Shown: positions 5,048-33,891 of the stretch, piece after piece
Numbering within the stretch: the stretch's first letter is position 1
How the letters are laid out: the number at the start of each line of letters is the position of its first letter
Assembly: GCA_021776315.1 (NCBI GenBank)
Contig: JAJFGD010000036.1
Location: 1-35,308 of the forward strand
From: Hyphococcus sp.
GTDB lineage: Bacteria; Pseudomonadota; Alphaproteobacteria; Caulobacterales; Parvularculaceae
DNA length: 35,308 bases
Direction of reading: 5' to 3'
The notes under the pieces: generated by a model
What the model was told of the DNA's origin: nothing
What the model saw: the letters and a program-made list of their open reading frames with translations, nothing else
Database searches by the model: none
Made by a program: the position numbers and the translations under genes

Positions 5048-5203
5048 AAAAAACGCCGCCCTGGCCGTCGGATCTATTGTTCGCCCTGGACCCTAAGGTA
5101 CAGGTGGGCACCGCATGAGAAGGGCCACGGCCCAAACCAGAGACAGCTCCCGATAGAAGAGATAAGGCCCCGGGGAATGTCATCCTGACGGGCCGGGCAG
5201 CCA
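5048..5203 (-). ncRNA. ssrS: 6S RNA
   Basis: Read on the minus strand, the 5' part (CTGCCCGGCCCGTCAGG, ending near 5203) pairs with the 3' part (CCGACGGCCAGGGCGG, near 5056-5071), giving the long closing stem of 6S RNA. Between them are elements I recognise from alphaproteobacterial 6S: ACATTCCCCGGGGC, CTTATCTC, GGGAGCTGTC, then GCGGTGCCCACCTGTACC and GGTCCAGGGCGAAC. The closing stem is followed by T6 (5048-5053), a plausible terminator. 6S RNA binds the housekeeping RNA polymerase holoenzyme and mimics an open promoter. Its place just upstream of 5-formyl-THF cyclo-ligase supports the call. The exact ends are estimates. An open reading frame overlaps the region but is not credible. Confidence 0.88.
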
Positions 5204-5207
5204 ATTG

Positions 5208-6564: not shown

Positions 6565-7328
6565 AATCCGATCTCCGTGCAAATTTTCTTGCCCAACTGT
6601 TCGCGCAGCTGTTTCCCAGGAATTTCCTCGATTGCTTCTTTGTTGAGTTTGCCAAGCTGGAAAGGCCCATAGGCGGTTCGGATTAGTCGGTTCACGTGAA
6701 GGTCAAGGTGGCGCATGAGTGTGCGCACTTCCCGATTTTTTCCTTCATTGATGGATAGGGTGATCCAAACATTGCCACCTTGATATTGGTCGAGCGTCGC
6801 CTTCACCGGTCCATATTCGATACCGTCGATTTCAACACCGTCTTTCAATCCATCAAGGCTGCGTTGTGAGGCTTTACCGTAAGCGCGCACGCGATAGCGT
6901 CGGGCCCAACCGGTTGAGGGGAGTTCTAGGCGACGGGCCAAATCGCCAGCATTGGTCAAAAGTAACAACCCTTCGGTGGTTAAATCGAGGCGACCAACAG
7001 AAATGACGCGTGGCAAACGCCCTTCAACCGCATCAAACACAGTTCTGCGTCCTTGCGGATCCTTGTGGGTTGTGACCAGACCGTCTGGCTTATGATATCG
7101 CCAAAGTCGCGGCGCAGCGGGCTTACTGATACGGGTCCCGTCGACACGGATGTCCATGTCGGGCGTGACCTTAAAAGCAGGCGTTGTCAGGACGTTTCCG
7201 TTGACCGAAACGATCCCTTGCTCAATCAGCTTTTCCGCCTCACGACGCGAGGCGACACCAGCACGAGCGAGGTATTTCGCAATACGTTCCCCGTCGCGTA
7301 GGTCGGCCTTTTGGTCATCATGCGTCAT
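6561..7328 (-). CDS. rluB: RluB/RsuA-family rRNA pseudouridine synthase
   Basis: The protein has 255 residues. An N-terminal S4 RNA-binding domain (about 14-60, RIAKYLARAGVASRREAEKLI) is followed by the RsuA/RluB/RluE/RluF catalytic domain. That domain contains the active-site motif GRLDLTTEGLLLLTN and the C-terminal signature NEGKNREVRTLMRHL. RluB in E. coli makes pseudouridine 2605 of 23S rRNA. Length and S4 domain fit RluB, but the exact target cannot be read from sequence. The ATG at 7328 has AAGGA 7 bases upstream. It heads the coupled unit with DUF4169 and rsmD and is divergent from the methyltransferase gene. A CtrA-like box overlaps its ribosome-binding region. Confidence 0.92.
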   Translation of the reverse strand: MTHDDQKADLRDGERIAKYLARAGVASRREAEKLIEQGIVSVNGNVLTTPAFKVTPDMDIRVDGTRISKPAAPRLWRYHKPDGLVTTHKDPQGRRTVFDAVEGRLPRVISVGRLDLTTEGLLLLTNAGDLARRLELPSTGWARRYRVRAYGKASQRSLDGLKDGVEIDGIEYGPVKATLDQYQGGNVWITLSINEGKNREVRTLMRHLDLHVNRLIRTAYGPFQLGKLNKEAIEEIPGKQLREQLGKKICTEIGL

Positions 7329-7342
7329 TAAGAAGTCCTTAA
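7328..7342. promoter_or_regulatory. CtrA-like box TTAA-N7-TTAA
   Basis: TTAAGAAGTCCTTAA fits the full CtrA recognition pattern. It covers the rluB ribosome site and lies 46 bases upstream of the methyltransferase ATG at 7389. Binding is not shown. Confidence 0.5.
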
Positions 7343-24767: not shown

Positions 24768-25685
24768 TTACGCCTCAACCTCTTCAATGTCACGTGGCTG
24801 CTTTGCTTCTTTGTCCATGCGTTTCATGGCTTTTTGCAGTTTTTCAAACGCCCGCACTTCAATTTGGCGAACGCGTTCGCGGCTGACATTGTAGACTTGG
24901 CTCAACTCTTCCAAGGTTGAAGGGTTATCCTTCAAGCGGCGTTCGGTGAGAATGTGTTGTTCCCGCTCATTCAAACTGGACAACGCATTCCCTAATAAGC
25001 CCATGCGCATTTCATATTCGTCTTCTTTGACGATCTTTGATTCCGGATTGACGGCATTTTCGTCAACCAGCCAGTCCTGCCATTCACCGCCACCATCTGC
25101 ATCTTTTGACATCGGTGCGTTGAGGGATGCTTCGCCCCCAGTCATGCGGCGGTTCATGGAAATCACATCGTCATGGGTCACGCCGAGCTTGGTCGCTATA
25201 TGTTCCACTTGATCGGGATGTAGATCGCCGTCATCGACAGCCTCAATTTGTCCCTTGATTTTGCGCAAGTTGAAAAAGAGTTTCTTCTGTGCGGCAGTGG
25301 TACCAATTTTCACCAGAGACCAAGATCGCAAGACATATTCCTGGATCGAGGCGCGGATCCACCACATCGCATAAGTTGCGAGGCGGAACCCTTTCTCGGG
25401 ATCAAATTTTTTCACGGCTTGCATCAAGCCAACATTGCCTTCTGAAATGACTTCGCCAATTGGCAAACCATAGCCGCGGTAGCCCATTGCAATTTTGGCA
25501 ACCAAGCGCAGATGGCTTGTGATCAGCTTTTGCGCTGCATCGGGATCCTCATGCTCCGCAAATCGTTTCGCGAGCATATATTCTTCGTCTTTTTCCAACA
25601 TCGGAAATTTGCGGATATCAGAAAGATATCGTGACAAACTTCCTTCCGGTGTCAGCGAAGGGGTGGTGGTTAATGCGTTGCTCAT
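24768..25685 (-). CDS. rpoH: RNA polymerase sigma factor RpoH (sigma-32)
   Basis: This 305-residue heat-shock sigma factor directs transcription of chaperone and protease genes. Region 2 (LITSHLRLVAKIAMGYRGYGLP, EGNVGLMQAVKKFDPEKGFRL, TYAMWWIRASIQEYVLRSWS) is followed by the RpoH box QKKLFFNLRK, diagnostic for sigma-32. Region 4 has a helix-turn-helix with LEELSQVYNVSRERVRQIE. The ATG at 25685 has GAGGAG about 9 bases upstream. A longer frame to 25793 has no ribosome site and unrelated sequence. The gene is transcribed leftward with a 228- to 336-base divergent region shared with the hybrid kinase. A heat-shock-type -10 and a 5' hairpin lie upstream. Confidence 0.97.
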   Translation of the reverse strand: MSNALTTTPSLTPEGSLSRYLSDIRKFPMLEKDEEYMLAKRFAEHEDPDAAQKLITSHLRLVAKIAMGYRGYGLPIGEVISEGNVGLMQAVKKFDPEKGFRLATYAMWWIRASIQEYVLRSWSLVKIGTTAAQKKLFFNLRKIKGQIEAVDDGDLHPDQVEHIATKLGVTHDDVISMNRRMTGGEASLNAPMSKDADGGGEWQDWLVDENAVNPESKIVKEDEYEMRMGLLGNALSSLNEREQHILTERRLKDNPSTLEELSQVYNVSRERVRQIEVRAFEKLQKAMKRMDKEAKQPRDIEEVEA

Positions 25686-25748
25686 CGGCGCAGTCTCCTC
25701 GGCGCGAAAAATAGACGGGTGCTTGGTGTTTGAAGTCCCCAAAGGATA

Positions 25749-25764
25749 CGCCCTGATAAGGGCG
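25749..25764 (-). other. Hairpin in the rpoH leader
   Basis: CGCCCT-gata-AGGGCG is a perfect 6-base-pair stem with a 4-base loop. If transcription starts near 25767 it would form the very 5' end of the rpoH mRNA, about 60 bases from the start codon. Confidence 0.4.
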
Positions 25765-25773
25765 CTGACCAAT

Positions 25774-25802
25774 ATATGGGGACAGGTGGCCAAAAATCCA
25801 AA
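25774..25802 (-). promoter_or_regulatory. Candidate sigma-32-type promoter of rpoH
   Basis: On the minus strand CCCCATAT (25774-25781) equals the sigma-32 -10 consensus CCCCATNT. A weak TTTGGAT (25796-25802) sits 14 bases upstream in the -35 place of CTTGAAA. The leader would be about 80 bases. Confidence 0.45.
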
Positions 25803-25958
25803 TTTTTACTCATTAATGCAGTAACTACAGACACTTAACGTCGAAATTATGGCACTGGCCGCATTAAACTGGCCTCTGGTGATGGGGGCAAAGTCCAAGT
25901 CATTGGGCCATTCATCGCTAGAAAACTTGATCGGGGTTTTGGCGATCGTACCCTCTGA

Positions 25959-26018
25959 TTAACCATTTTGCCTTAGATTTTTGAATTCGAATGTCCGACG
26001 ATTTTAAGGAATCCTTAA
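25959..26018 (+). promoter_or_regulatory. CtrA-like sites with a GANTC in the kinase promoter
   Basis: TTAACCAT (25959-25966) equals the short CtrA motif described in Caulobacter. TTAAGGAATCCTTAA (26004-26018) fits the full TTAA-N7-TTAA pattern and is a palindrome with a single-base centre. It contains GAATC, a GANTC site for CcrM methylation, and covers the AAGGA ribosome site of the kinase gene. Confidence 0.55.
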
Positions 26019-26021
26019 GCG

Positions 26022-28601
26022 ATGGTTCTTCTGACGAAATCACGTGTAGGTCACGTAAAACAGTCTAGTACACGATTGATGATCCCGGCGATTGCAGCTG
26101 GAACGCTTACCGTTCTGCTCATCTTTGGCTTTTTTACCGCCTATAACCAGGCGTCGGAAAGCTCGCTACGTCGCAAAGAGGTCAATCAATATATCGAATC
26201 TGTCGGACAATCCACGGCCTGGGGCGTTGAGAATTGGCTAACCCAACGCATCAAAATGGCTGAGGAAGTTGGATACGAAATTGAAATGACGTTGCAAATG
26301 GAAACCATTGTGGACCATTTGCGGAGTACGGTTTTTGAAGACACTTTTATTTGGACTTACTACGGCGAAGCCGACGGGACATATCATATATGGCCCCTCG
26401 ATGATGAACTACCATCTGATTATGACCCGCGTACGCGTCCTTGGTATGAGGCCGCCGCCAGTGCCGGCCAAACGACCCTAACCGAACCTTACTTTGATAT
26501 TACGACAGGTGTCGAAACTATTACTGTGGCAACGCCTATCTATCGCGACGGTAGCTTATTGGGCGTGGTTGGGGCTGATTTTTCAACAGCAAGTTTGAGT
26601 GAAGTGTTGGCGCGAACCAATCTTGGCGGATTGGGCCATGCTTTTTTGGTAACAAACCAAGGTAAGATTTTGGCGCATCCTGACCGAGGGGCAATATCTG
26701 ATAGTATCAACGCTGTTTACGCTCTTGATACACCGCAGCTCGCTTCAGATATTCAGTATTTGGACAGCCTTGACGAGCCAGAAATTGTATCCTTCTTACC
26801 GATCCCCGCAGTTGCCGCGATTGATTGGCATTTAGGGCTATCGGTCAACCAAGCTAAGGCCTTTGCAGGGTTGAATGAATTCAGGCGTAGGGCAGCGATC
26901 GCTGCGCTTGCAGCCGCATTTTTTATGATTGTTGTATTAAGCTATGTGATACATCGATTACTTGTGCGCCCACTCAACAAATCGCGAATAGAAGCTGACG
27001 CGGCCAGTGTTGCAAAATCTGAATTTCTAGCCTCTATGAGTCATGAAATTCGTACACCAATGAATGGTGTACTGGGAATGGCAGAGGTGCTCCTCAGCAG
27101 CGATTTGGATAACCGTCAAAAGGAATTGGTGTCGATTATCAATTCCTCTGGCAATGCATTGATGACCGTTATCAATGATATTCTTGACTTTTCAAAGCTT
27201 GAAGCGGGGAAACTTCGACTTAGTACAAACAGCTTCAATCTGCGCCAGACAGTTTTTGAAATGGCGACGATGATGCAAGCACGCGCGCTCGAAAAGGATC
27301 TAGAATTGATCGTGCGTTATGCGCCTCATTTGCCGGAAGGCGTTATTGGCGATGATGCGCGGTTGCGCCAGGTGCTTGGCAATTTGATCGGAAATGCCGT
27401 CAAATTTACGCAGCAAGGATATGTCCTGGTCGAAGTTGATGGCGAACATGTGGACGAGAATGTGGTGTTGCAAATTTCTGTGAAGGACACTGGAATTGGA
27501 ATCGCACCCGGTCAAATGCCAAGAATGTTTGAAAAATTCGAACAGGCCGATGGATCCCATACGCGAAAATTCGGGGGTACCGGGCTTGGTCTCGCGATTA
27601 CTAAAAATATTGTTGAATTGATGGGCGGCGAAATCTCGGCAGATAGTGAGGTTGGTAAAGGTTCACGTTTTGCATTTTCGTGCACATTGCCGATTGATGA
27701 ACAAGTCGCGGCAATGAAAGAACGCGACACTGAAGTATTCAACGGGGTTCGGGTTCTGGCTGTCGATGATAATCCCGTCAATCGGCGGGTCTTTAAAGAG
27801 TTGTTGGATGGCTGGGATATGCGTTCAACGGTTGTTGAAAGTCCTGTCCATGCATTCGCTGCTTTGGAGAAATCAGTCGCAGATGGGGATCGTTTTCACT
27901 TAGCGCTATTGGATCATCAAATGCCTGATGAGGATGGCGTCTCATTGGCTTCACGCATGAAGGCAGATCCACGATTTGCGACCATTCCGATCATTATGTT
28001 GTCCTCAATTGGTGGCATTGAAGATACGTCGCAAAGTTCAAATGGTGACATAGCCATTTCTCTTGCAAAACCGGTCCGGCCGTCACAATTGATGGATGCT
28101 ATGGCGCAATTGTTGTCGGATTCGTCTGTGTCGGCCCTTTGTCAGACCGCTCGAAAATTGCTCAACAAAAAACCAATGCCCGAGCCTGCAATCAACGAAA
28201 AGAAAAAGATCTTGATCGCAGAAGATAATGCGGTCAATCAGATGGTTTTGAAAACATTCATTTCCGCGGACGAGTTTGATATTGTTGTGGCCGACAATGG
28301 AAAAGTCGCTGTTGAGTTATTTCAAGCCCACAAACCGGCATTGGTGTTGATGGATTTGTCCATGCCGGTCATGGATGGATTAGAGGCAACGCGAAAAATT
28401 CGTGAGATCGAAGCGGAAACCGGGTTACCGGAGACCCCGATCATCGCGACAACCGCGCATGTGTTGCAAGAGGCAAGAGATCGGTGCGGTGAAGTTGGCA
28501 TGAATGACTTTTTGCCAAAGCCACTCAAAAAAGGCGCGATCGACGAAGTTTTCAAACGTTGGATTGGTGCGAACACTCAGCAGGCTGCAGCCGCTAGCTA
28601 G
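26022..28601 (+). CDS. Hybrid sensor histidine kinase with dCache domain and two receivers
   Basis: This 859-residue inner-membrane kinase has a first membrane helix at about 20-42. A periplasmic dCache-type sensor follows (about 45-285; [12 protein letters not shown] is typical, then [20 protein letters not shown]). A second helix lies at about 293-313. Next come HisKA with [10 protein letters not shown] (His341), and HATPase_c with an N-box ([11 protein letters not shown]) and G-boxes ([15 protein letters not shown]). Two receivers follow: one with LALLDHQMP (Asp631), one with [12 protein letters not shown] (Asp778). No HAMP and no C-terminal HPt domain is seen, so an HPt protein elsewhere is expected. 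The start at 26022 is weakly supported by AAGGA 11 bases upstream. Small-molecule ligand unknown. Confidence 0.94.
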
Positions 28602-33844: not shown

Positions 33845-33891
33845 AAAGCCGCTATAACTGGAATTAACCAATAAGTCGTAAGCATTGTTTG

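Follow-up and report, generated by a model that had tools for sequence, protein, structure and literature searches.

The stretch of DNA analysed (hereafter the window, 35,308 nucleotides) is contig C205 of the G000 assembly of Hyphococcus sp. (3.3 Mb in 275 contigs, 95% complete). It includes a gene for a hybrid histidine kinase, which begins with an ATG codon at 26022 and is divergent from a gene for a sigma-32 factor. The start of the latter was chosen by us as MSNAL, which places its likely first base at 25685. The two genes and the features found or predicted between them are as follows.

24768..25685, minus strand: sigma-32 factor RpoH, divergent neighbour of the kinase gene (TIGR02392 and NF005143)
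25948..25951, plus strand: degenerate left half-site GTAC (compare TTAA), 7 bases before TTAACC, at alignment columns -11 and -10 of which T is found in 13 of 18 orthologues
25959..25966, plus strand: TTAACCAT, right half of a CtrA-type box, predicted at -27 to -20 and supported by conservation and matrix rank
25974..25979, plus strand: TAGATT, predicted -10 box (TAnnnT), with TA in 17 and the final T in 13 of 18 orthologues, at a fixed distance from TTAACC
25985..25987, plus strand: predicted transcription start, placed by its spacing from the -10 box
26004..26018, plus strand: palindrome TTAAGGAATCCTTAA, 15 bases, in the predicted 5' untranslated region, holding TAAGGA (26005-26010) and GAATC (26009-26013)
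26022..28601, plus strand: orphan hybrid histidine kinase of 859 aa, with dCache_1, HisKA, HATPase_c and two receiver domains (Pfam)

No partner gene for the kinase is evident beside it. The neighbours of the kinase gene differ between genomes: with one adjoining gene scanned per relative, none of nine relatives matched the neighbours seen in the window, and frame sizes suggest that the closest relative, G024, has neighbours in common with it. Elsewhere in the window, a 6S RNA gene is located at 5049-5206 on the minus strand (Rfam RF00013, 56.5 bits), and the Rfam scan of the window gave nothing beyond it.

An initial annotation, made from the letters of the window, had described TTAACCAT and the GAATC-containing palindrome as a double CtrA-like site in front of the kinase gene, and the letters and positions that it gave for TTAACCAT, TTAAGGAATCCTTAA and GAATC are exact. 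In the window, TTAACCAT occurs once (1.01 expected) and TTAACC 12 times (11.99 expected). The TTAA-N7-TTAA pattern is found three times against 0.54 expected, a count reached in 3 of 100 shuffles, and the 15-mer TTAAGGAATCCTTAA has a single copy in the 3.3 Mb assembly. GANTC is rarer than expected over positions 1-35308 (47 against 144.6, a threefold depletion). As these counts are mostly unremarkable, the case for function must rest on relatives.

Conservation of the TTAACC box

A search of 60 genomes revealed full-length orthologues of the kinase in 11 others besides G000, and a profile of the sensor matched 22 of 62 genomes of the family at 1e-30. The set used below consists of 18 orthologues with a readable upstream region, which come from three genera of one family: 12, including that of the window, from g1 and g5, and six from g6. 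Three distant g2 homologues, a G021 sequence covering residues 188-339 only, and a broken second copy in G008 were left out; one of the distant homologues, G077, was aligned with the orthologues and excluded from the column counts. Start codons of the orthologues were picked by us from the N-terminal translations, and other picks would shift the distances given to the start. Among the 14 organism-named loci obtained with the sensor, 12 are alphaproteobacterial (Parvularculaceae, Parvularcula, Marinicaulis or just Alphaproteobacteria) and two belong to distant Aeromonadales. An orthologue (L069) is also found in the cultured Marinicaulis flavus SY-3-19.

TTAAC is kept in all 18 orthologues, at -50 to -75 from the start codon, and is followed by C in 16 of them. 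A relative that has kept the kinase and lost the motif would speak against the CtrA-like site; for the TTAACC box none was seen among the orthologues, all 17 besides that of the window retaining TTAAC. Between -45 and +44 from TTAAC, the columns that exceed 0.5 bit are T at -11 and -10 (13/18 each), the five bases of TTAAC at 0 to 4 (18/18 each), C at +5 (16/18), T at +15 and A at +16 (17/18 each), and T at +20 (13/18). None of the remaining columns in this range reaches 12/18, and the mean pairwise identity over the remaining flank columns is 27.7%. The conserved pattern is TTnn-N7-TTAACC-N9-TAnnnT.

The core of this pattern, TTAAC-N10-TA, is present at -80 to -40 in 17 of the 18 upstream regions, as compared with a mean of 0.027 and a maximum of 1 in 1000 sets of Markov copies, and was found in none of the 18 in any of five control windows farther upstream. 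The exception is G013, which has TTAACC and lacks the -10 TA. The pattern was noted in the first 12 upstream regions before the six of g6 were read, and all six of these fit it. Among the distant g2 homologues, TTAAC is present in one of three, G077, as TTAACG-N9-TA; G082 and G083 are without the site. What sets the TTAACC box far apart from chance is its conservation and not the letter counts.

A matrix built without the genome of the window ranks 25959 first among 70552 window positions. In 10 copies of random sequence, 0.4 positions per 35 kb reach the score of the site, and hence a single site would not be significant without the relatives. With leave-one-out matrices, the best forward match in about 311 upstream bases is the site in 17 of 18 orthologues, G013 again being the exception. 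The promoter region has stayed with the kinase gene while the neighbourhood has mostly changed, and the gene is accordingly described as an orphan hybrid kinase.

Two further observations concern the same pattern. The third-best matrix match in the window, 33864-33884 (TTAACC-N9-TAAGCA), is 25 bases before a gene for an LD-carboxypeptidase and lies where a Mur ligase gene starts on the opposite strand. The second kinase copy of G008, on contig C3 (L099, L100), is broken by an in-frame stop, and upstream of it TTAAGC followed by TA at the same distance was seen by eye.

A predicted CtrA-type promoter

Setting TAnnnT as -12 to -7 puts the start of TTAACC at -27 and that of the left TT at -38. 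In Hyphomonas, ChIP-seq of CtrA gave the consensus TTAA-N7-TTAAC (PMC7200025), and TTAACCAT is on record as an ungapped variant of the CtrA site (PMC6180460). In Caulobacter, full TTAA-N7-TTAA motifs and half-activator motifs are described near -35, the P2 promoter of ctrA carrying a full motif at -39 (PMC4287350). In the alignment of the orthologous upstream regions, the check proposed with the double site, the left half is best placed at the weak GTAC at 25948, which has G and T at columns -11 and -10 and matches TTAA at two of four positions. Among the orthologues the left half shows T in 13 of 18 at each of these two columns, and its AA is not conserved.

The segment 25948-25979 is thus probably a CtrA-activated promoter of the kinase gene. 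Its conservation and spacing were computed directly, and we infer CtrA as the binding protein, its activating role and the transcription start. CtrA~P would bind over the -35 region to a box composed of the right half TTAACC (25959) and the weak left half GTAC (25948), and would help RNA polymerase to open at the -10 box TAGATT (25974-25979). Transcription would start near 25986 to give a leader of about 36 bases, within which the palindrome at 26004-26018 would serve as a Shine-Dalgarno site (TAAGGA). The kinase would then be made along with the products of flagellar and division genes, in the same cells and at the same phase of the cell cycle, and it likely belongs to the programme for cell cycle and motility. 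A scan for sigma-70 promoters found none in 25600-26200, a result that says little because a CtrA-type promoter is without a proper -35 box.

A CtrA query against the G000 assembly returned paralogues only, namely six full-length OmpR-type regulators at 25-35% identity. CtrA was found at 82-84% identity in 23 of 27 genomes of the same genus and as a partial sequence (85%) in G026, and no CtrA was found in the assemblies of G015, G018 and G027, which are 76-86% complete. In G024, ctrA is divergent beside mraZ-mraW. The mraW gene of G000 (73% identity) is on contig C118, which opens (L126, 1-33) with the reverse complement of ctrA codons 1-11, MRVLLIEDDGA; an mraZ-like frame was seen by eye between the cut ctrA and mraW, as in G024. 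Absence of ctrA from G000 was considered and rejected, since the mraW neighbour led to C118, the end of which breaks ctrA at codon 11. Hence, ctrA is cut by a contig end and not lost, and a naive search would miss the regulator. G000 also encodes CcrM, a protein of 374 aa with PF01555 and a RAMA domain. Both genes on which the initial annotation depended are therefore present, ctrA by its first 11 codons, and the depletion of GANTC in the window agrees with an active CcrM.

TTAAC-containing motifs were also observed upstream of these two genes. In G000, G024 and G004, ctrA is preceded by TTAACCA and then GTTAGC (L126, 133-138, minus strand; L101, 6279-6284), pointing to autoregulation with a spacing unlike that of the kinase promoter. 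Within 140 bases upstream of ccrM of G000 (L006, 443-693) there are five GANTC sites, TTAACC at -116 and TTAAC at -95, which would fit control by CtrA and methylation.

G000 holds 71 TT-N9-TTAACC sites, all of which were read, and 23 of them are promoter-like by a simple rule; the kinase site itself, with GT for TT, is outside this set. Such sites were found in front of ftsZ, the motB-flgE-flgK-flgI cluster and a gene for an EAL protein, as well as genes for a MotA/TolQ/ExbB protein and a polysaccharide deacetylase. The motB site is 55 bases upstream and has the top matrix score among TTA-starting positions in a 20 kb stretch. The set includes gene kinds that CtrA controls elsewhere, and for some of its genes we know of no tie to CtrA. 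The polysaccharide deacetylase gene is divergent and has TT-N9-TTAACC-N10-TAG upstream in both G024 and G000 (L121, L211). At the loci of fliX, a CtrA-driven gene, the best forward match in relatives is TT-N9-TTAAC in 7 of 17, a count in which one row (L139) is misplaced. As an illustration and not a test, 20 sites with a spacing of 9-11 were picked by hand in G004 and G024 and nine of their proteins were scanned; these include a methyl-accepting chemotaxis protein, a second hybrid kinase, a serine acetyltransferase, a ribulose-phosphate epimerase and a cytochrome.

Genome-wide tests of spacing and orientation gave no significant signal. Only two of 38 TTAACC-N3..13-YTAG occurrences in G000 have the spacing of the kinase promoter, and one of these is the kinase promoter itself. 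Among the 23 promoter-like sites, TAnnnT was found three times at +16, three times at +7 and not at +15. The orientation bias among 30 sites is not significant (16 inside frames, four with a gene forward only, two reverse only, six both and two neither). Another spacing test gave no clear signal among the matches listed, and the reversed pattern that served as its control is of a different composition.

The lack of significant support for CtrA in these tests of spacing and orientation bears on a second reading, in which the promoter is real and conserved and TTAACC is read by another OmpR-type regulator or by an alternative sigma factor that uses a short spacer. The six OmpR-type regulators of the assembly supply candidates for this role, and CtrA binding at the site is itself a prediction. 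However, TT-N9-TTAAC corresponds to the CtrA consensus of Hyphomonas, is the best forward match at 7 of the 17 fliX loci noted above, and in the form TT-N9-TTAACC stands in front of ftsZ and the flagellar cluster. The 9 bases between TTAACC and TA, too short a gap for the usual -35/-10 pair, also speak against it. We regard this reading as rather unlikely, and CtrA remains the preferred regulator of the kinase promoter.

The palindrome, GANTC and the ribosome-binding site

The palindrome is found at its place in none of the 17 other orthologues, the only similar case being a different TTAA-N7-TTAA at -104 in G027. It lies about 18 bases past the predicted transcription start. TAAGGA within it is a plain Shine-Dalgarno sequence, separated from the ATG codon by 11 bases. 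The same overlap with TTAAGGA is seen in another of the three TTAA-N7-TTAA sequences of the window (7328-7342), immediately upstream of a gene on the opposite strand. Of the proposed double site, the part at TTAACC is supported as a CtrA-type site, its TTAAC being conserved in 18 of 18 orthologues, and the palindrome as a full CtrA site is not supported.

GANTC is present within 150 bases of the start in five of 18 orthologues, at -5, -13, -13, -144 and -150, which does not amount to conservation in the kinase promoter. Three of the 18 have GANTC beginning no more than 13 bases before the start (-13 in G000, GAATC at -13 in G067 and GATTC at -5 in G063), a small excess that may be meaningful.

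Binding of CtrA to 26004-26018 as well, with CcrM methylation of GAATC tying transcription or translation to replication, is judged very improbable. The letters of the palindrome and of GAATC are there, TTAA-N7-TTAA is mildly overrepresented in the window, the matrix gives TTAA at 26015 rank 19 among 70552 positions, and GANTC, for all its rarity, recurs close to the start in the three orthologues named. Against this stand the confinement of the palindrome to one species, its place downstream of the predicted transcription start, the plain ribosome-binding role of TAAGGA, the small number of orthologues with GANTC, and the lack in its right half of the C of TTAAC.

The palindrome had also been suggested to fold in the RNA and hide AAGGA. 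The hairpin has an energy of -3.9 kcal/mol, a stability matched by 28 of 200 shuffles; the z values of folds of 101, 60 and 26 nt are -0.01, +0.77 and -1.11, respectively, not clearly above shuffles. A hairpin over the ribosome site, being near shuffle level and private to one species, was rejected.

The palindrome is most likely a ribosome-binding site, its second TTAA and GAATC being due to chance, which is favoured for these letters. That the TTAACC box and the palindrome are both functionless is next to inconceivable, for although the window counts of TTAACC and TTAACCAT equal expectation, the conservation of TTAAC-N10-TA far above the Markov sets and the control windows refutes chance for the box. 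Most likely, therefore, the initial annotation was right on CtrA and TTAACCAT and wrong on the palindrome and GANTC.

The sensor domain and comparison with known systems

The sensor of the kinase aligns over its full length with PctB (E 1.8e-56) and PctA (E 1e-51). In PctA numbering, the amino-acid motif (AA_motif) consists of Y121, R126, W128, Y129, Y144 and D173 (PMC9796306). By counting along the alignment of the sensor with PctA, these residues correspond to Y134, R139, W141, Y142, Y157 and D186 of the kinase, which has D159 as a further PctA-type residue. The window protein has all six AA_motif residues, as do 11 of 12 aligned sensors (12 of the 18 orthologues were aligned), G031 having F in place of Y129. 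As the PctA pocket is reported to bind AI-2 too (PMC7584622), the kinase is a predicted amino-acid sensor for which AI-2 or other ligands are possible.

An amino-acid-sensing kinase under CtrA could provide a nutrient input to the cell cycle, with the signal passing via a shared phosphotransfer protein such as ChpT back to CtrA or to a c-di-GMP switch. The motile or predivisional cell would in that case be where CtrA has the sensor made. We put this forward as a speculative proposal with a small chance of being right.

The kinase promoter is an ordinary but well supported addition to the predicted CtrA regulon. Through it an orphan sensor kinase joins the probable CtrA regulon of Parvularculaceae, and a predicted amino-acid sensor is linked to the cell-cycle programme. 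Parvularculales have been named the sister group of Caulobacterales (PMC7987155). In the titles and the openings of abstracts of the literature on CtrA and Parvularcula, no CtrA targets of Parvularculaceae were found, and none of the papers searched treats Marinicaulis together with histidine kinase. The promoter is predicted at the level of single bases with 18 natural variants, and the locus illustrates that a striking palindrome can mislead when a quieter adjoining motif is the conserved one.

The sensor is like the amino-acid chemoreceptors PctA and PctB of Pseudomonas in its full-length alignment and its six AA_motif residues. Where PctA and PctB have a chemoreceptor signalling domain, however, the sensor described here is followed by the hybrid histidine kinase and its two receiver domains.

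The promoter resembles the CtrA-activated promoters of Caulobacter and Hyphomonas in having half-sites 11 bases apart from start to start, TTAAC with a trailing C, a predicted place over the -35 region and a -10 box of the TAnnnT kind downstream. It differs in that 13 of 18 orthologues keep no more than TT of the left half, for which G000 has GTAC, and in that the CtrA site of the Parvularculaceae kinase is predicted from sequence. The half-site activator class of Caulobacter comprises 107 transcription starts (PMC4287350). With one good TTAA(C) half near -35 and GTAC as its left half, the promoter in the window is closer to this class, whereas its orthologues, unlike half-site activators, show traces of two halves.
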